The notes beneath the pieces were generated by a model. It made no database searches. It saw only the letters and a program-made list of their open reading frames with translations, and was not told the DNA's origin. Source: a virus. From it: 20,492 nt of DNA. Below, piece after piece: positions 12,434-20,364 of this stretch; position 1 is the first letter of the stretch, and each line of letters begins with the position of its first letter. Both the position numbers and the translations under genes were made by a program. Location of the stretch: positions 1 through 20,492 of IMG/VR virus record IMGVR_UViG_3300009409_000067, one strand, 5' to 3'.

Positions 12434-13078
12434 CTATTTCAAGCTGTCTATGGTGGGAAATTTCTGTGTTTTAAGGATGCCATCTGCAAATCCGTAGTAG
12501 ACAGCTTCTTCTGCACTTAGGTACCAGTCTCCGTCTTTCAGTTTGCGTTTCAGAAAGTTCTTCACCTTTTCTTCACTGGGATCAGAGTAGTGTTCCTTCA
12601 TGTACTCACCGTTGATCACGTTCTCTGTATATATGTCGAGCATTACCTCCAAGTCTCTTTTCTCGAACATGGCGGCTTTCTGGACATCGAGGTAATTTCC
12701 ATCATACCCCGATTTGCCATAGTGACACATAAAGTAGGCATTTGGCATCATAACGCGACGGTCTGCTGCCTGCAAGATAATGCTGCTCATAGATTCTGCC
12801 TGACCGTAGACCAAAACGGTAACGACAGATCGAGCCATACTAATTGCGTCGAAGATAGCCATTCCATCATTCCAGCAGCCACCGATGCTGTGCATGTGGA
12901 CGATAATGGGTTCTTGGCTTATTGTGTCTAGCAGCCGAATGTTCTTGTAGAACGCCACTGCCATTCGATACTCTACGCCGGGGTCTTCATCCGTGTTGCC
13001 AACGTAGGAGTGAAGGTAAATCTCTCGATTTTTACAATCAAGCCCATAGTCGGATACGGTCTCTACGTTTCCGCTCAT
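12434..13078 (-). CDS. ClpP-like serine protease (S14 family)
   Basis: The 214-aa protein has the ClpP/crotonase-type fold signature: HSIGG near residue 63 in place of the usual SPGG oxyanion turn, GQAESMSS with nucleophile S96, YFMCHYG with H119, and KDGDWYLSAEEA with D184, followed by YYGFADGIL as in ClpP (…EYGLID). The complete Ser-His-Asp triad suggests an active peptidase. In many phages ClpP-like enzymes mature the head. Here a separate prohead protease is present downstream, so this one may process another virion protein or act on host proteins. The ATG overlaps the preceding stop (ATGA) and has a GGGAG site 7 bp upstream. Confidence 0.85.
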   Translation of the reverse strand: MSGNVETVSDYGLDCKNREIYLHSYVGNTDEDPGVEYRMAVAFYKNIRLLDTISQEPIIVHMHSIGGCWNDGMAIFDAISMARSVVTVLVYGQAESMSSIILQAADRRVMMPNAYFMCHYGKSGYDGNYLDVQKAAMFEKRDLEVMLDIYTENVINGEYMKEHYSDPSEEKVKNFLKRKLKDGDWYLSAEEAVYYGFADGILKTQKFPTIDSLK

Positions 13079-13596
13079 TTTTTTCTCCCAACTGAGTAGA
13101 ATTCGTTCACCCTTTTCAAAATGCTGTTGACTACCAGTTTGGCGTTCTTTCTGTTCCCACAGAAGATGACGTGGATATCATCGTACATCTGAAACTCAAT
13201 GAGCATCTTCAACATGTACTTGTTCGTGATTTTTACGTCTTTCCACTTTTCTTCTGGAATACTGGAACTCTGTGGAAAATTCATAACGTCTTCAAGCGTA
13301 AACTCTAGGACTAAGAACTTGAAAGGGAACCCTTTCACCCTTTCGATCTCAGCCATAAACCTGATTTTGTCTGAACCCAAGTTGATAGCCATCTCTGAGA
13401 TGGACCCTTTTCTCTCGATGGTCAGCTTGTCCTCATATCCAACGAGCGTGTAGTCGCCCGTGTCTAGTTTCTGGACAACCATGCCCGCACAAGAGGCGTA
13501 TCTACCGTCGAACCTTTCAAACGTGTATCCATGACCCTCATGCTCTCTCGTATCTTTGATCACCGTGTATGGAGGTGCCTTACTTTTGCTTGCCAT
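13075..13596 (-). CDS. ERCC4-type nuclease
   Basis: The 173-aa protein matches the XPF/MUS81-type nuclease core: DTREH at residues 15-19, DTGDY at 45-49 and the metal-site IERK at 60-63, followed by GSISEMA. The usual form is GD...ERKxxxD. Here an E stands in the last acidic position with one extra residue before it, which I have seen in phage members. No HhH or helicase domain is attached, so it is a stand-alone nuclease domain. It probably cuts branched or flap DNA during recombination, replication or before packaging. The start has a GAGG site 5 bp away. It overlaps the HNH gene by 17 bp and the ClpP-like gene by 4 bp. Confidence 0.8.
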   Translation of the reverse strand: MASKSKAPPYTVIKDTREHEGHGYTFERFDGRYASCAGMVVQKLDTGDYTLVGYEDKLTIERKGSISEMAINLGSDKIRFMAEIERVKGFPFKFLVLEFTLEDVMNFPQSSSIPEEKWKDVKITNKYMLKMLIEFQMYDDIHVIFCGNRKNAKLVVNSILKRVNEFYSVGRKK

Positions 13597-13864
13597 TTTT
13601 CCTCACAATCTCCATGAACAACGCTTCGTACAAGTGTTCTTTCTTTGAAATGGACTTATGACAGTCCCAACAAAGAGTGATGCCGTTGCGGGTATCGTAC
13701 CTCAACGCTGAGGCTGTAGACCACTTCTTAATGTGATGAGCTTGCAGGCTGCGTTTCTTTCCACAGCACTTTTTGCCCTTGGGCATCTGGCAACGATATT
13801 TGTCTCTCGCGTAAACCAGACGACGCCACTGCTTGTAAACGGGATCATCGTAGTTTCTTTTCAT
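13580..13864 (-). CDS. HNH endonuclease (94 aa)
   Basis: A compact HNH domain. The first part has RDKYRCQMP with C25 and a paired CC at 33-34; the catalytic part has LQAHHIKKW (H43, H44), N60 in RNGITLC, and a C65-x2-C68-H69 knuckle, giving a zinc-supported beta-beta-alpha-metal site. Small HNH proteins next to the large terminase are common in tailed phages, and in HK97-like phages one is needed for packaging-linked cutting. Here it sits in the packaging operon, four genes upstream of the terminase, beside an ERCC4 nuclease. A free-standing homing enzyme is less likely because it is short and embedded with overlaps on both sides. Confidence 0.85.
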   Translation of the reverse strand: MKRNYDDPVYKQWRRLVYARDKYRCQMPKGKKCCGKKRSLQAHHIKKWSTASALRYDTRNGITLCWDCHKSISKKEHLYEALFMEIVRKNGKQK

Positions 13865-14111
13865 CTTTGCAGAATACCTTTTTGATCCTCATTTCTTGTT
13901 GTAGCTCCTTACAAAGTTGTGCTACTTCTATTGACTCCTCTTGTCTCAGCAACATTTCGGAAAATTTACAGAAAGTGTAGTAACATGCCTGATCCGCGTC
14001 TTCGGCCTCAATGAACAGCGTCGGGAACTGAGAGTTAAATTCTCCCAGCTTAAAACGCTGCAAGCTGCCAAGGACATTGGTCATGTCTACCTCTACTGTG
14101 TAAATTTTCAT
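13845..14111 (-). CDS. Hypothetical protein (88 aa)
   Basis: A small soluble protein of mixed strand and helix, MKIYTVEVDM at the start and a Lys-rich end. Its ATG overlaps the gmd stop (ATGA) and its 3' end overlaps the HNH gene by 20 bp, so it is firmly part of the operon. I do not recognise a family. Confidence 0.7.
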   Translation of the reverse strand: MKIYTVEVDMTNVLGSLQRFKLGEFNSQFPTLFIEAEDADQACYYTFCKFSEMLLRQEESIEVAQLCKELQQEMRIKKVFCKDEKKLR

Positions 14112-15217
14112 TGCAGATCATTATCCACCATCATCTTCACCAGATCGGTGAATGAGTGTTTGGGGGTCCAGCCCAATTCATCTCTAGCCTTAGAGGCGTC
14201 ACCACGGAGGTAATCTACCTCAGCGGGACGATAAAACTCTGGGTCTTGAACTACTAGGTCTTCCCAATCTTCAATGTCAACGTGAGAAAAGGCCGCGTCT
14301 AGGAACTCTCGAATAGAATGAGTCTCGCCGGTGCAGATAACATAATCCTGTGGACTGTCCTGTTGAAGCATCATCCACATCGCTTCCACATAATCTCCTG
14401 CGTACCCCCAATCTCTACATGCTTCTAAGTTGCCTAGACGCAGCTTTGGAAAGTCTGAGACATAAGGAGAAACTATGTCGTTTTCGGTAAAAGTGTATGG
14501 TTCGGCATCGCCGTGATATTCACAGGCTTCTTGGTAGCTGTCTTCCCACTTCTTGAATTCTCCAATCCACTTGGTGATTTTCCGCGTAACGAAGGTTTCG
14601 CCTCGTCGCGGACCCTCGTGATTGAACAGAATACCAGCACACGCATGAAAGCCATAAGCCTCTCGGAACAGGCGGGTCATATGGTGAGCGGCGGTCTTCG
14701 CAATAGCGTAGGGGCTTTGCGGCATAAATTTGGTGTGTTCGTCTTGGTACTTCTCCATCTCCACCTGTGGGGGATTAGACAACAAGGAACGTCCAGTCGG
14801 ACGCTCGTCGCACTCTTTCCCGAACATTTCGCTGGAACTGGCCTGATAGAACTTCGCACGAACATCAAGATTCGCCATCGTCTCCAAGATGTTCAGGCAC
14901 CCTTTTCCCGTGATATCCCAAGTCAAGGCTGGTTGTTTGAAGGATACGGCGACGTGACTTTGGGCTGCCAAATTATAGATTTCATCTACATGAGCGTATT
15001 TCAAAAGTATATTGGCAATGCTGTGTGCGTCTGTGATATCCCCCTGAACCAGATCGAAAGTCGCGTATGGGAGAAGATGCTTGATTCTCTCTGTGCAGTC
15101 CGTACTGGACCGTCTCGCCACTCCAATGACGTGGTATCCCTTGCCGATTAGCAAGTCGGCAAGGTGGCTGCCGTCTTGTCCTGTTATTCCGAAAATGATG
15201 GCCGTCTGTTTCTTCAT
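14108..15217 (-). CDS. gmd: GDP-mannose 4,6-dehydratase
   Basis: Converts GDP-D-mannose to GDP-4-dehydro-6-deoxy-D-mannose, the first step to GDP-fucose, GDP-rhamnose, GDP-perosamine and related sugars. It is a 369-aa extended short-chain dehydrogenase. Seen: NADP-binding GITGQDG at 10-16, ARRSST at 35-39, ASSSEMFG at 126-133 with the catalytic Ser/Thr and Glu, the YxxxK pair Y170/K174 in SPYAIAK, then ILFNHEGPRRGETFVTRKIT, nearly diagnostic for Gmd. The C-terminal LGWTPKHSFTDLV also fits. An insertion of roughly 18 residues lies before SPYAIAK compared with typical Gmd. No fucose synthase or glycosyltransferase is in view, so the product may feed a host pathway, surface glycan change or virion glycosylation. 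Finding it inside a packaging operon is notable. Confidence 0.93.
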   Translation of the reverse strand: MKKQTAIIFGITGQDGSHLADLLIGKGYHVIGVARRSSTDCTERIKHLLPYATFDLVQGDITDAHSIANILLKYAHVDEIYNLAAQSHVAVSFKQPALTWDITGKGCLNILETMANLDVRAKFYQASSSEMFGKECDERPTGRSLLSNPPQVEMEKYQDEHTKFMPQSPYAIAKTAAHHMTRLFREAYGFHACAGILFNHEGPRRGETFVTRKITKWIGEFKKWEDSYQEACEYHGDAEPYTFTENDIVSPYVSDFPKLRLGNLEACRDWGYAGDYVEAMWMMLQQDSPQDYVICTGETHSIREFLDAAFSHVDIEDWEDLVVQDPEFYRPAEVDYLRGDASKARDELGWTPKHSFTDLVKMMVDNDLQ

Positions 15218-15927: not shown

Positions 15928-16737
15928 CTAGTCCTTCACTGTTTCCGGTGTCAAAAATGGTTGGTCTACCATGTCGTCGGTGTATTTGTGGAACTGAGAG
16001 AGTCTCTCCCCCTCTTTCTCCATCGCCAGCCTCATCATTTCCATCTCCCTACCGTACTCTGCTGACTGCTCTGGGCTAACCATGAGGTGAGCCATCCAAC
16101 TATTGAAGTTAGACTTGCTATCCTCTAGCCTCTTGCGTATCTGGTCACGGGTGGCCTTCATGTCTTTCATCATCGAGTTCTTCTTCGTTTGAAGCTCTCG
16201 GTAGTCTTTATTGAGGGATTCTTGGGAAGCCTTGAGGGACGCTACCTGCCGCTCCATGTTGAACATCTCGTCGGCATTCTGTTGATCAGCATCATGCTCT
16301 CGCTCCGTAGCAATGAGGGCCTCTAGAACATTGATCTGTTCCAAGTTGTCCTTATTACCCTTGAGTGCCCGGTTCATCAGAAGGTCCATCTTCACAAGAT
16401 CGACTACCTGAATTTCTTCCGTAGGACTGACTTCATTGTTGAACTGACCAACAATACGTACCCAGTGGTATTTGAACAGAATTAGCTCGTCGGTTGTGAA
16501 TTGCTGCTTTAGCTCCCCCCAATAGGGTCGCGACATAAGGTTGTACTCCCCTGAGTTTACGTCGCCCTCGTCTAACCATGAGGGTGCGAGGAAGTCCCCA
16601 CTAGCCACTTTTCGCCTGATGAACTCTGCAAGACTATTAGGGTCTCGGCTTAGAAGTTCCCCAAGTGCTTTGAGATCGAGATGAAGATTGCCCTTGATAA
16701 GGGTTTCGTCATCCTTTGATATTCTACCCTTCTTCAT
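15928..16737 (-). CDS. HTH plus coiled-coil protein, possible small terminase
   Basis: The 269-aa protein opens with what looks like a helix-turn-helix: KDDETLIKGNLHLDLKALGE followed by SRDPNSLAEFIRRK, residues about 8-43. A helical middle (TDELILFKYHWVRIVGQF and VDLVKMDLLMNRALKG, about 80-128) is followed by a long coiled coil, about 130-215, and a C-terminal tail. DNA-binding N-terminus, oligomerising core and position upstream of the large terminase fit a small terminase, which recognises phage DNA for packaging. Eight other genes separate it from the large subunit, which weakens the call. An alternative is a structural or regulatory coiled-coil protein. It overlaps the sigma-like gene by 14 bp. 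Confidence 0.45.
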   Translation of the reverse strand: MKKGRISKDDETLIKGNLHLDLKALGELLSRDPNSLAEFIRRKVASGDFLAPSWLDEGDVNSGEYNLMSRPYWGELKQQFTTDELILFKYHWVRIVGQFNNEVSPTEEIQVVDLVKMDLLMNRALKGNKDNLEQINVLEALIATEREHDADQQNADEMFNMERQVASLKASQESLNKDYRELQTKKNSMMKDMKATRDQIRKRLEDSKSNFNSWMAHLMVSPEQSAEYGREMEMMRLAMEKEGERLSQFHKYTDDMVDQPFLTPETVKD

Positions 16738-17251
16738 TTATACCCTCCGCGTAGCCGTGTTCCTCAAGAATTGATTTGACTATGTCAATGACTTCTTCTC
16801 GACGCTGTTTGCTCACGTAGACATCATTGATCAGCTTCAAGTAGTCCATTCTGACATTCGCTGGCATGTACTGGTCGATGGCCCTCGTCATCGACTTGAC
16901 ATCAATCTGCTCATATGAGTTCCCGAACGTCTCTGCGACATCAATGATCGAGTCCTCGTAGTCAAGCTGTGCCGGTTGTACGAGCTTCTTCCGCTGTTCG
17001 TTGGTCTGTGCCGTGAAGTAGTTGTCCCTCACAAAGGTTTTCAGCCTGTTCGACAGGTTCACGCTGAGAAAGTTCTCAAGCGGCCTCGTGGGGTCATATC
17101 TATTCAGGGCCTCAATACATAAGATGAACGCCTCTTGCCTGATGTCGTCCGTCGTATACCCGTAAAAAGCATACTTGGGGGCTATCCTGTTGACGACAAT
17201 CTGAATCTGGGCAATCACCTGTTCCTCCGTCATTCCTTCCGGTAAGTTCAT
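16724..17251 (-). CDS. Phage sigma-like factor (sigma-70 region 2)
   Basis: The 175-aa protein has a region-2 pattern at about residues 27-80: YGYTTDDIRQEAF, then CIEALNRYDPTRPLENFL, then NLSNRLKTFVRDN. This matches the D(L/I)xQEafi..lkal..yD......f..yl...i.n.l.d.lR signature of sigma-70 region 2, which binds polymerase and melts the -10. A helical stretch at 138-168 might be a degenerate region 4, but no clear -35-binding helix is seen. Size and the F.GYT element recall T4 gp55, the late sigma that reads a -10 box only. That fits the -10-only boxes in this window. gp55 likeness is inference; region 2 is seen. ATGA overlap with the upstream gene. Confidence 0.7.
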   Translation of the reverse strand: MNLPEGMTEEQVIAQIQIVVNRIAPKYAFYGYTTDDIRQEAFILCIEALNRYDPTRPLENFLSVNLSNRLKTFVRDNYFTAQTNEQRKKLVQPAQLDYEDSIIDVAETFGNSYEQIDVKSMTRAIDQYMPANVRMDYLKLINDVYVSKQRREEVIDIVKSILEEHGYAEGINEEG

Positions 17252-17910
17252 TCTAGTTCCTCTGTTTTAAGTGTCCTCCAAAAAGTTCCGTCAAAATATT
17301 CCAACCGTTGAGATATCTTGTTGTATATGAACATACCTTCCACCGGTCGATCTGGCCTAGACCAGACTGGGGAAAGTTGAACACGCTCATATGCGGGTGA
17401 TCGCCCCGTTGTGTAGCGACCTAGCTGTTCAAGTAGCTCATCGGCAGTGAGGGAATCAATATGACCCTCTTTATAGCCGAGATACTCATCTTTCTCAAGA
17501 GTGATCAACGCATCCGAAGTCATTACGGAGCAGTGTTGATTAGGGAGAAAGGAGAGATTTGATGGTTGATAGGCGTAGATGAGAAGATGGTCGCCGTCAC
17601 GCTTTAAGATGCGATCTCCAGCGATATCCTCATCAATCACGAGGGTTTTTTTACCGTCAGCGGTCTGAAAGTGCCCTACGTGAGTGGACTGACTGATGGG
17701 TTGTCCACCTAGGCAGAAATTAACGGCCACGAAGAAGGGTTCTTCATCTTCAACGAGGGTCGTTAGGCAGGGATGGTCTGAATTACTGAGGTAATCCTCA
17801 AGTTCACGTCCAACACTGCAATCTTTGAGGGTGCAGTCTCCAATAACGATCTCTCCCCCATCGCATGTCGCAAGACAGTACGAATTATTCGGCAGGATCG
17901 CTATTTTCAT
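17248..17910 (-). CDS. Unknown protein with fibre-type C-terminal motif (220 aa)
   Basis: I start at ATG 17910 because GGAGG (17924-17920) lies 9 bases upstream; the first residues are MKIAILPNNSY. Upstream in-frame ATGs (17916 and 17949) are too close to or before this site. The bulk is beta-rich with many Cys and Asp and no known domain. The C-terminus, GMFIYNKISQRLEYFDGTFW, is the short 'G..(I/V)YN....LE.(Y/F)(D/N)G..W' motif common in phage tail and fibre proteins, so it may be a virion or adhesin-like protein. The N-terminal 26 bp overlap the upstream 65-aa gene. Confidence 0.7.
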   Translation of the reverse strand: MKIAILPNNSYCLATCDGGEIVIGDCTLKDCSVGRELEDYLSNSDHPCLTTLVEDEEPFFVAVNFCLGGQPISQSTHVGHFQTADGKKTLVIDEDIAGDRILKRDGDHLLIYAYQPSNLSFLPNQHCSVMTSDALITLEKDEYLGYKEGHIDSLTADELLEQLGRYTTGRSPAYERVQLSPVWSRPDRPVEGMFIYNKISQRLEYFDGTFWRTLKTEELE

Positions 17911-18082
17911 CGGCATCTTCCTCCGAATCTTCTTCTTCTGGAATTCCATCGTGCAGAGACAGGAGGGTCGCTAAACACTTGTCCTCTGACTCAAGCTCCT
18001 TTTGAACTTCCAGCTTCAACTCGCCCGTCGCCTTGCAACAGAGTGTCACTTCACATTCTTGTGTCTTTTTTTCGTCGCTCAT
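17885..18082 (-). CDS. Small acidic protein, first gene of the leftward operon (65 aa)
   Basis: A GAGGG site lies 6-7 bp before ATG and the promoter at 18120 about 30 bp upstream. The first half has four Cys (two adjacent) and the last 20 residues are almost all Glu, Asp and Ser. Not recognised. The acidic tail could mimic DNA or bind a basic partner, which is speculation. Confidence 0.65.
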   Translation of the reverse strand: MSDEKKTQECEVTLCCKATGELKLEVQKELESEDKCLATLLSLHDGIPEEEDSEEDADENSDPAE

Positions 18083-18119
18083 GGTTTTCCCTCATGTAAA
18101 AGTTATCAGTACTCATACT

Positions 18120-18148
18120 ATTATACGCAATTCAGACGTTTTCTCCAA
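18120..18148 (-). promoter_or_regulatory. Promoter of the leftward operon
   Basis: On the minus strand TATAAT is at 18125-18120 and TTGGAG at 18148-18143, spaced 17 bp. The -35 matches consensus in only three positions. The context TTGCGTATAATAGTATG matches the 4778 box at 15 of 19 positions, so it may be read by the phage sigma-like factor, by the host sigma, or by both. Confidence 0.6.
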
Positions 18149-18151
18149 AAA

Positions 18152-18166
18152 GGTTTTGTCAAAACC
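18152..18166. promoter_or_regulatory. Palindrome between divergent promoters, candidate operator
   Basis: GGTTTTG-T-CAAAACC is a perfect 7-bp inverted repeat around one base. It overlaps the -35 box of the rightward promoter and lies just upstream of the leftward one, a good place for a regulator controlling both. On the minus strand it is followed by TTTTT (18151-18147), so it could instead be a weak terminator. Confidence 0.5.
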
Positions 18167-18184
18167 GTCAAATTGGACTAGAAT
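18156..18184 (+). promoter_or_regulatory. Rightward sigma-70-type promoter before the HNH gene
   Basis: TTGTCA (18156-18161), 17 bp, then TAGAAT (18179-18184): five of six matches in each box with optimal spacing. Transcription would begin near 18191 and give a leader of about 318 nt before the HNH start. Confidence 0.6.
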
Positions 18185-18239
18185 AGAGTGTGGCAATGGC
18201 TGTAAAGTGTCACAATTCGCCAGAAATCCGTAAAAAGAC

Positions 18240-18459
18240 GTAACCGGGTGCAGTTTTGCGTTCCTGACCCACTGGTGGAGAGAGAGTTACCGGAGGGTCT
18301 CAAGAACCCCAAGGTGAGGCAGAGTTTTTGGGCAACGTGTTACCAACCGACCCGAACCTGTGAAGGGCGAAAGCCACCAGCGACTTAATATTGCATTTGT
18401 AAGTATTTCAGCATAAAAGTCCTCACTGCTCTCTGACACAGCCTATTACCTTCACAGGT
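18240..18459 (+). ncRNA. Structured RNA leader of unknown class
   Basis: This non-coding stretch between the rightward promoter and the HNH gene contains a perfect 11-bp inverted repeat, ACCTGTGAAGG (18356-18366) with CCTTCACAGGT (18449-18459), enclosing 82 nt. Inside lie a GGC-GAAA-GCC tetraloop hairpin (18366-18375, sharing one base with the long stem) and a GACTT/AAGTC pairing. Upstream, GTAAC pairs with GTTAC around smaller hairpins (GCA/TGC, CCAC/GTGG), and CCCAA pairs with TTGGG. This looks like a folded RNA: a regulatory leader, a small RNA or part of an intron. I compared it in memory with RNase P, tmRNA, common riboswitches and group I and II cores and found no match. Confidence 0.5.
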
Positions 18460-18508
18460 ATAAATGGACTTGGTACGCCCGGATAACAATTTAGAACAAG
18501 GAGATAAA

Positions 18509-19198
18509 GTGGAAACTATCGTATGTACAGGATGTGGCAAAGAAAAACCGGATACCGACTACAACTGGCACTCCAAGGTGAAGCAAATAAGGAGAAAACA
18601 ATGTAGGATTTGTCAAGGCATCGCTGGGGTAGAATACTACAAAAACAACATTAATAGTAGGAAAGTCTATCTTGAGGAAAACAGAGAGAAAATTTCCAAT
18701 CAACGTTCGACGAGACTACGTGAAGACGAGGAACATGCTGAGAGATGCAGGGCAAGAACAAGAAAGTGGCAAGCAAACAACAGGAATCATATCAACAAGT
18801 ACCTAAAAAATAGGTATGACAACGACCCTAATTACAAAATGAGAACCGTTCTGTCCGCTAGGTTGAGATACGCCGTTGTTGCACAGAATCTAGAAAAGAC
18901 TGTCGGGACAATAGAGTTGCTTGGATGTAGCACACAGGAGTTGAGGCAACATCTTGAGGGCCAGTTTCGAGAGGGTATGAGTTGGGACACCTATGGCTTT
19001 TACGGCTGGCACGTAGACCACATAAGACCCTGTGCAAGTTTCGATCTGACCCAAGAGGATCAACAGAGGGCGTGCTTTCACTACAGTAATCTACAACCGC
19101 TCTGGGCTAAAGACAATCTGTCTAAGGGCGACAAATGGGAGGGTGAAGATGAGGTTGGACTTTATGGCGACGGAAAAATTTTGATAGGGGCGGTTTAG
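18509..19198 (+). CDS. Zinc-finger HNH endonuclease, homing type
   Basis: A 229-aa protein starting at GTG 18509, chosen because AAGGAG lies 5 bases upstream and the zinc finger begins soon after. An ATG at 18464 would add 15 residues but its only ribosome site is inside the 11-bp stem. The N-terminus has a Cys4 knuckle, CTGCGKEKP and CRICQ. A basic helical linker with many Arg and Asn follows. The catalytic HNH is WHVDHIRPCASFDL, then CFHYSNLQPLWAKDNLSKGDK, typical of free-standing or intron-borne phage homing endonucleases that cut phage genomes lacking the gene. It is the only large rightward gene and the gene-free stretches around it suggest a mobile unit. No interrupted exon gene could be found. 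Confidence 0.88.
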   Translation: METIVCTGCGKEKPDTDYNWHSKVKQIRRKQCRICQGIAGVEYYKNNINSRKVYLEENREKISNQRSTRLREDEEHAERCRARTRKWQANNRNHINKYLKNRYDNDPNYKMRTVLSARLRYAVVAQNLEKTVGTIELLGCSTQELRQHLEGQFREGMSWDTYGFYGWHVDHIRPCASFDLTQEDQQRACFHYSNLQPLWAKDNLSKGDKWEGEDEVGLYGDGKILIGAV

Positions 19199-19470
19199 AA
19201 ACTTTTGAAATACGCGAGGGAAATTTTTGTGGAAGAAGCAGAAGCATTTGCCAACTTTCGGTGTGAGACGTTTCTATCTGAGAGGGTTGGGTAATACTCA
19301 TGTTTTGGTGGGGTTTGGTGAGTCATAAGGACCAAGGCCCTTTTGTGCAGCGGCAACATGTTTATCTCTGAACTAACAACACCCATACCCCCGGCCCCTG
19401 TCCCATAAGTCCTTTGATAGTAATAACTTATGTCAATTTAATAAACTTTGCAAAACTTTAACGATTGGGC
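19199..19470 (+). other. Gene-free stretch after the HNH gene
   Basis: No convincing coding sequence. It holds a weak hairpin with a T-run (AAGG near 19327 with CCTTTT near 19339) that could end the HNH transcript, and a perfect 7-bp inverted repeat CATAAGT/ACTTATG at about 19406-19434. Possibly untranslated remains of the mobile unit. Confidence 0.4.
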
Positions 19471-19498
19471 TTGACATTTCGGGAGATGTTGGTATAAT
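19471..19498 (+). promoter_or_regulatory. Consensus sigma-70 promoter
   Basis: TTGACA (19471-19476), 16 bp, TATAAT (19493-19498): both boxes perfect. This is the form of strong early phage promoters read by host polymerase. Confidence 0.85.
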
Positions 19499-19504
19499 GG
19501 AAAT

Positions 19505-19666
19505 ATGAAAACAACAACTAACAGAGTCAAGATCGTTTGTCATCTCCGTGGAACCAAGCAGCAGTACTTCGTTGCACGCTGCGAGCGTAGCGATGGTTCA
19601 CTCATCGCGGTTCACACCAACAAGAATCGCCAACGACTTGCAAAAGTTACTGCGATTTATAGCTAA
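19505..19666 (+). CDS. Small basic protein, possibly leaderless (53 aa)
   Basis: The open frame begins at ATG 19505 (MKTTTNRVKIVCHLRG) and ends at TAA 19664-19666. It is Lys/Arg-rich, with KQQYFVARCERSDGS in the middle. The ATG is only 7 bp past the last base of TATAAT, right where transcription should start, so the mRNA would have no leader and no ribosome site. Either it is translated leaderless or the frame is not a gene. Its middle loosely resembles the next small protein (KRYWIAAFDGSPRR), which supports it being real. No family recognised. Confidence 0.5.
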   Translation: MKTTTNRVKIVCHLRGTKQQYFVARCERSDGSLIAVHTNKNRQRLAKVTAIYS

Positions 19667-19671
19667 AGGTA

Positions 19672-19700
19672 TTGACATCACAATGCCGATAGTATATAAT
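19672..19700 (+). promoter_or_regulatory. Second consensus sigma-70 promoter
   Basis: TTGACA (19672-19677), 17 bp, TATAAT (19695-19700): a perfect host-type promoter starting 6 bp after the preceding stop codon. The start site would be near 19707, leaving a leader of about 40 nt. Confidence 0.88.
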
Positions 19701-19720
19701 AGAGACAACAAGTTAACACA

Positions 19721-19738
19721 GTTCAGAGAGTTCAGAGA
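19721..19738 (+). repeat. Tandem 9-bp repeat in the leader
   Basis: GTTCAGAGA occurs twice in a row just upstream of ATG 19746. Each copy holds an AGAGAG-like sequence that could act as a weak ribosome site; the duplication may tune translation. Confidence 0.5.
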
Positions 19739-19745
19739 GTTTCAC

Positions 19746-19946
19746 ATGCAGAGTTTACAAAGTAAGATCATCAACATTGGCCCCAAGCCCTTGACCATTC
19801 ATATCATGGATGCGGGTGAAGGACACACCGAACGCTTCGCAATGGGCAAGCGTTATTGGATCGCGGCCTTCGATGGTTCACCACGTAGGGCGACTAGCTG
19901 TTCCAACAGTCGCCGTTACATTCAACGCAAATTCGATGAAAGATAA
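19746..19946 (+). CDS. Small basic protein (66 aa)
   Basis: Starts MQSLQSKIINIG and contains MGKRYWIAAFDGSPRRATSC, then an Arg-rich end. It follows a perfect promoter and the duplicated leader repeat. It may be distantly related to the 53-aa protein before it (both have K..Y(F/W)(V/I)A then DGS). Small basic proteins in phage early regions often alter host functions, but nothing here shows which. Confidence 0.65.
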   Translation: MQSLQSKIINIGPKPLTIHIMDAGEGHTERFAMGKRYWIAAFDGSPRRATSCSNSRRYIQRKFDER

Positions 19947-19950
19947 GACA

Positions 19951-20163
19951 ATGGCACAATCAACCCTGCTTGACGGTCAAGAGCTTTACACTCCCGCATT
20001 GGTTCGGGCACGCCTTGCGAACGAAGGCGACTTCAATGCACGCAGCTTCACAACTGGTAAGCTGTTGGAAGTGACGGCCATTGATGGCAGTTTGGTGACG
20101 GTCTACTTCGCAGGGACAGATGTTAAGTTCCACATGGACGCACACAAAATCAAATCACTTTGA
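19951..20163 (+). CDS. Small hypothetical protein (70 aa)
   Basis: ATG 19951 is 4 bp after the previous stop, so translation is probably coupled. The second half has a compact beta pattern, GKLLEVTAIDGSLVTVYFAG, like a small SH3-type barrel, then a C-terminal HMDAHKIKSL. An upstream in-frame ATG at 19936 would add five residues. Function unknown. Confidence 0.65.
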   Translation: MAQSTLLDGQELYTPALVRARLANEGDFNARSFTTGKLLEVTAIDGSLVTVYFAGTDVKFHMDAHKIKSL

Positions 20164-20172
20164 GGTAATACG

Positions 20173-20364
20173 ATGCTTGACGAACTAACACTAGCGGTAA
20201 CAGAGGGTGAGCCTACACTAGAGGAATGGAAGGCTATTTATAGGTCCATTTCGTACAAGGGTATGGGTGAATACACATCCATCCTCGCACCTAAGTGGTG
20301 TGGTGATAGTGAGGAAGTAGACTATCTGTGCAGGCTGATCACATCAATCGTATGTGCTGAGTAA
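20173..20364 (+). CDS. Small acidic protein (63 aa)
   Basis: A GAGGT ribosome site lies before ATG 20173, 9 bp after the previous stop. The protein is acidic and helical (EPTLEEWKAIYRSISYKG) with two Cys in the C-terminal half. Not recognised. Its stop codon touches the start of the terminal repeat. Confidence 0.65.
   Translation: MLDELTLAVTEGEPTLEEWKAIYRSISYKGMGEYTSILAPKWCGDSEEVDYLCRLITSIVCAE

Follow-up and report, generated by a model that had tools for sequence, protein, structure and literature searches.

HEARO (OMEGA) RNA is a structured RNA located directly upstream of an ORF that encodes an HNH protein (IscB). RNAs with many interlocked pseudoknots are mostly catalysts, ribonucleoprotein scaffolds, or RNA cages, and to our knowledge few RNAs retain so many of them as the one described below. 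Phages carry GOLLD and ROOL, RNAs of unknown function that form cages via conserved intermolecular contacts; the variable linker of GOLLD sometimes holds tRNAs (PMC12286853). Here, we analyzed a stretch of 20,492 bases from IMG/VR virus record IMGVR_UViG_3300009409_000067 (the window), in which an initial annotation had placed a long structured leader before an HNH gene and had suggested a new regulatory RNA, an sRNA, or one side of an intron. By comparison of homologues, we show that positions 18189-18474 encode a predicted multi-pseudoknot RNA that is conserved at a fixed locus and occurs in two types (A, as in the window, and B) with the same helix order. The region between this RNA and a conserved 3' block behaves as an exchangeable cargo slot, which may be empty and which holds the HNH gene in the window. 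The main features of the locus are as follows:

17885-18082, minus strand: small divergent gene, adjoining the RNA in most relatives (tblastn)
18156-18184, plus strand: sigma-70-type promoter, TTGTCA-17-TAGAAT (10 of 12 matches), with spacing and -10 kept in 42 homologues
18189-18474, plus strand: predicted structured RNA, type A 5' domain, whole fold (42 homologues, 62 pairs)
18509-19198, plus strand: cargo ORF, an HNH nuclease of 229 aa, endonuclease VII-like (PHROG 1035, E 4e-21)
19276-19384, plus strand: conserved 3' block of ~110 nt behind the cargo slot, in all 38 type A loci whose flank is long enough

A terminase query led to hundreds of uncultured relatives, with isolate proteins only ~25% identical. 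Relatives were gathered via terminase, sigma-factor, and pattern searches and then by iterated nhmmer, which placed the type A RNA at 71 loci, with 42 distinct sequences that cover the 5' domain nearly completely. They come from 42 distinct contigs, all of a single uncultured phage lineage, and occupy one fixed locus. An extra pattern search returned type A members again; wherever such a hit had flanking genes, it came from the same lineage. No type A match was found in the phage isolates and plasmids searched, and in cellular genomes the pattern hits, among the matches listed, are not members of the RNA family by HMM. A capsid search for the viral lineage gave no match, and psbA (a cyanophage hint) is absent in eight related contigs.

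Elsewhere in the window, the leftward operon on the minus strand encodes, within 13075-15217, a second HNH protein (13580-13864) as well as an ERCC4-domain nuclease (13075-13596) and, at 14108-15217, a GDP-mannose 4,6-dehydratase. A phage sigma-70 region 2-like protein is encoded at 16724-17251 (minus strand), in the same operon and upstream of the terminase. Small genes occupy 19471-20364, at least two of them with their own perfect TTGACA-N16/17-TATAAT promoter (19471, 19672), and the last ~130 bases of the contig (20365-20492) are a simple repeat of the ACACACGCACGC type, perhaps an assembly limit.

The likely promoter that had been noted at 18156 is borne out by the homologues. In all 42 type A loci, the -10 box reads T-A-n-A/T-A-T (TATAAT-like) and helix P1 begins 3-5 nt past it; the spacer between -35 and -10 is 17 nt in 37 loci and 18 nt in five. 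Because the -10 box sits so close ahead of P1, the RNA should start at P1, and the alignment shows the type A RNA to have a predicted promoter of its own, conserved directly before that helix. The proposed leader length of ~318 nt is consistent with a GTG start at 18509 behind the Shine-Dalgarno sequence AAGGAG (18498-18503), and the cargo ORF most likely starts there. Translation probably does not begin at the in-frame ATG at 18464, which heads the longest ORF but falls inside a conserved strand of the RNA, UAUAAAUGG. The RNA itself shows no conservation of a long reading frame; its stop-free stretch has a median of 41 codons.

Minimum-energy folding of the window sequence gave the leader an ordinary folding energy (z = +0.36 and +0.42). 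Folding energy thus offered no support, and comparison had to decide. In an APC-corrected covariation scan, stacked pairing columns ranked top, and the type A structure was written from that scan. It comprises 62 pairs in 12 helices, with 94.7% of cells paired (alignment A1, 42 sequences). Double changes occur at 45 of the 62 pairs compared with 28.7 in shuffles, and the covariation score is 0.423 compared with 0.171 +/- 0.006 in shuffled and at most 0.083 in slid controls. When partners are slid by one column, pairing falls to 38.6-45.9%, a control that somewhat favors the type A structure because the structure was derived from the very sequences counted; more weight rests on the double changes. 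A covariance model of the type A core has its sole match in the window at this place (by construction). It is covariation, and not folding energy, that argues for the predicted leader structure, and on this basis the interval almost certainly encodes a real conserved structured RNA. From 5' to 3', the order of its elements is P1, x, an H-type knot, c, d (with y), e, f (with z), and g:

18189-18214, plus strand: helix P1 at the 5' end (18189-18195/18208-18214), double changes at 6 of 7 pairs
18198-18443, plus strand: pseudoknot x, P1 loop GGCUGU (18198-18203) with ACAGCC (18438-18443), from covariation
18238-18270, plus strand: small H-type pseudoknot (18238-18240/18259-18261; 18246-18253/18264-18270), the weakest part
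18281-18434, plus strand: helix c (18281-18287/18428-18434) stacked on helix e (18313-18319/18421-18427), from covariation
18295-18309, plus strand: hairpin d (18295-18298/18306-18309) with loop CAAG, 100% paired, double changes at 3 of 4 pairs
18301-18472, plus strand: pseudoknot y, loop CAAG (18301-18304) with CUUG (18469-18472), 100% paired
18328-18355, plus strand: hairpin f (18328-18332/18351-18355) with loop ACCA, 98.6% paired, double changes at 4 of 5 pairs
18343-18467, plus strand: pseudoknot z, loop CCA (18343-18345) with UGG (18465-18467), 96.8% paired
18356-18459, plus strand: pseudoknot g, the 11-bp stem, crossing c and e (conserved part 18357-18365/18450-18458)

The two outer pairs of P1 are often broken among homologues. 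Pseudoknot x is 97.2% paired, with double changes at four of its six pairs, and helices c and e are 95-98% paired, with double changes at 6/7 and 5/7 pairs, respectively. Within the H-type knot, the inner helix is 97% paired and carries double changes, the 3-bp partner is 77% paired, and the outer two pairs reach 61%. In four homologues, CAAG/CUUG of pseudoknot y becomes CGAG/CUCG. All three pairs of pseudoknot z show double changes, but few sequences carry them. The perfect 11-bp long-range stem of the initial annotation is exact (18356-18366/18449-18459); when the leader was dinucleotide-shuffled 200 times, a perfect stem of at least 11 bp arose in two of the shuffled sequences. Among the homologues, the outcome is the opposite of uncompensated change in its arms: pairing holds in 99.5% of cells over the nine conserved pairs of g, and both sides have changed at six of them. 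Some of the single-stranded stretches of the RNA are near-invariant. Other proposals from the single sequence fared less well. The nested pairings miss the conserved architecture, which is pseudoknotted, and the GAAA-loop hairpin (18366-18375), although present, is not conserved and falls in a segment that varies. A separate candidate spotted by eye, AAGUCC (~18416-18421) with GGACUU (~18466-18471), was rejected because several homologues break the pairing (e.g., L012, L009, L014) and because the strand is taken by y and z.

Sister phages that lack the type A RNA carry a different conserved RNA at the same locus (type B). This set reached 35 distinct sequences after a further pattern scan; the counts given here are for 34. 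The small divergent gene at 17885-18082 flanks the RNA in phages of both types and so serves as a locus marker. A separate covariation scan of type B gave x, the knot, c, d with its loop pairing y, e, z, g, and other helices, whereas hairpin f is almost invariant and was placed by eye. In type B, 97.4% of cells are paired, 26 pairs show double changes compared with 13.4 in shuffled alignments, and the covariation score is 0.250 compared with 0.113 in shuffled and at most 0.052 in slid controls. The two types share the locus and, from 5' to 3', the succession of helices and pseudoknots, including the order e', c', x', g', z', y' along the 3' strand. The sole short sequence common to both, found by eye, is a GGUA..AUAAA motif directly after helix g. 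The HMM sets of the two types do not overlap, and the type A covariance model finds no type B RNA. Because these searches fail to connect them, it is from locus and architecture that we infer that types A and B form one RNA class. Unlike sequences with the same helix order point to strong selection on the fold.

The 3' block (GGTTTRGGTAAGACA..GTCTGAACCACC..TTTTT..GAAGATAAAAC) also follows the type B RNAs. It shows no covariation within itself or with the 5' domain. Distant relatives retain the block and the slot, with ORFs right behind the promoter, and the HMM recognizes no RNA there. Because the block is present in relatives without the RNA, it is not part of the fold, and, as it also lacks covariation, the idea that it forms the second half of the RNA was dropped; it may be a terminator or a DNA element. 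In five of these distant phages (L093, L096, L098, L099, L109), a small ORF and then an HNH-like ORF of the homing-endonuclease type lie directly behind the promoter with no RNA (ORF types judged by eye).

The contents of the slot vary greatly in type A. In 18 of 38 loci, the slot is empty (25-102 nt) and the RNA is kept. Filled slots hold HNH-type nucleases or remnants of them (eight), UDP-glucose/GDP-mannose dehydrogenase-like ORFs (four), DUF1289 or small zinc-ribbon-like ORFs (five), a cytidylyltransferase, a GNAT enzyme, and one unassigned ORF (Pfam classes UDPG_MGDP_dh, CTP_transf_3, GNAT, DUF1289, and HNH/GIY-YIG). On the RNA tree, the minimum number of changes is at least 15 for cargo, at least 10 for presence or absence, and seven for HNH. 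The genes that follow empty slots vary and have their own TTGACA/TATAAT promoters. Type B slots with enough sequence contained an ORF in every case examined, mostly DUF1289, and in filled slots of both types the start codon lies ~15-55 nt behind the RNA. At some type B loci (e.g., L347, L351, L340, and L354), larger ORFs (203 and 233 aa) are inserted in the slot ahead of the DUF1289 or small zinc-ribbon-like ORF; where tested, these had no Pfam or NCBIfam assignment. The description of the RNA as the leader of an HNH gene is thus partly right: because the RNA persists where the downstream ORF is absent or swapped for unrelated genes, it is not a specific HNH leader.

A trans-acting RNA with a cargo slot fits these observations best. 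The balance tips slightly toward a new class of phage noncoding RNA that acts mainly in trans, with the slot behind it. To the fuller account we give roughly even chances: a new two-type multi-pseudoknot class would act in trans in the course of infection, be it as a ribonucleoprotein, as an assembly of RNA only, or as a catalyst, and its transcript would be a landing slot for mobile or metabolic genes. The RNA would be transcribed by the host RNA polymerase, which we propose because the promoter is sigma-70-like. It would then fold to a compact globule, its 3' strand clamped by the loops of d and f together with the 9-11 bp helix g, and as a noncoding RNA would act on a target in the host or the phage, while the cargo ORF would ride along and be translated from its own Shine-Dalgarno sequence. 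The main competitor is a cis leader, whose fold would control translation, stability, or processing of the following ORF in the manner of a riboswitch or a general 5' UTR. Position at the 5' end of the transcript, near the start codon in filled slots, suits this, and the filled type B slots leave more room for a cis role in that type. However, the empty or exchanged slots of type A contradict a leader specific to one gene: nearly half of these loci keep the RNA with no slot ORF, and the cargo has switched repeatedly among unrelated functions; no Rfam riboswitch matches either. We therefore regard a cis leader as rather unlikely, though it deserves to be taken seriously.

Some of x, y, and z might instead be contacts between molecules of a homo-oligomeric particle, as GOLLD and ROOL cages are built through intermolecular contacts (PMC12286853). 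The RNA is phage-borne and has several loop-strand pairings, and covariation makes no distinction between intra- and intermolecular pairs; but it is a third to half the size of GOLLD or ROOL, whose models do not match, and the tandem y and z strands beside g suit an intramolecular clamp, so that an oligomer appears improbable. Lower still is the likelihood of a ribozyme, in which the compact knot would be a self-cleaving or other catalytic core: interlocked pseudoknots and near-invariant single-stranded stretches would agree with this, yet no known family matches and the alignment yields no inferable cleavage site. It is hardly credible that the leader and the 3' block are the two halves of an ORF-bearing self-splicing intron. 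An HNH-type nuclease ORF is indeed flanked by two conserved blocks, as the annotation's suggestion of one side of an intron would have it, but the promoter ends 3-5 nt ahead of the first helix at all 42 loci, so that transcription leaves no 5' exon; no flanking exon was found, the 3' block exists without the RNA and covaries with neither itself nor the 5' domain, and group I and group II models gave no match on 18050-19500 (E up to 10) or in eight related loci (E up to 5). We give as little credence to the absence of any RNA function, with conservation owing to DNA-level constraint or recent common descent. The ordinary folding energy of the single sequence agrees with this reading, but the compensated pairs and the loss of pairing after a one-column slide speak strongly against it, and type B independently gives the same result. 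The trans-acting RNA with a cargo slot remains our preferred reading.

With regard to known RNA classes, the covariance search that the annotation had proposed recognized none, even at lax thresholds. In Rfam 15, the window and eight related loci were unmatched at gathering and permissive thresholds (cmscan with E up to 10 on 18050-19500 and up to 5 on the related loci), a result that may miss a topological match to a known RNA, given pseudoknot-free models; three weak chance hits in the related loci fall outside the RNA. Together with the strong covariation, this agrees with the proposal of a new regulatory RNA (or an sRNA) outside the known classes. The searched literature has no description of the RNA, although one beyond the searched library is possible. 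Riboswitch and leader classes gave no Rfam match, and there is no constant regulated gene, the downstream ORF being absent or exchanged in type A. The RNA resembles tmRNA in combining pseudoknots and an ORF on one transcript, but ARAGORN finds no tmRNA in the window, Rfam gives no match, and no tRNA-like ends were seen. Like group I/II introns with HNH ORFs, it is a structured RNA adjoining a mobile HNH-type nuclease ORF; unlike them, it has its own promoter at the first helix, lacks exons, and often has an empty slot or unrelated genes. The HEARO/OMEGA model does not match, and no IscB-like (RuvC plus HNH) protein is linked to the RNA. The protein here is a small, dispensable endonuclease VII-like HNH of the PHROG 1035 kind (229 aa), missing or replaced in most relatives.

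GOLLD and ROOL are nearest in kind to the type A and B RNAs. They are likewise phage-borne, pseudoknotted or ornate, and of unknown function, and other genes can sit in their variable part. The Rfam models of GOLLD, ROOL, and OLE do not match the RNA, which at ~290-330 nt is a third to half the size of GOLLD and ROOL (roughly 600-800 nt). The cargo here is protein-coding and lies behind the fold. At ~300 nt, the two types are compact targets for structural biology, from a phage locus in which the RNA is constant while the genes behind it change. By these comparisons, the type A and B RNAs look like a new RNA class within the already known, broad genre of large phage noncoding RNAs.
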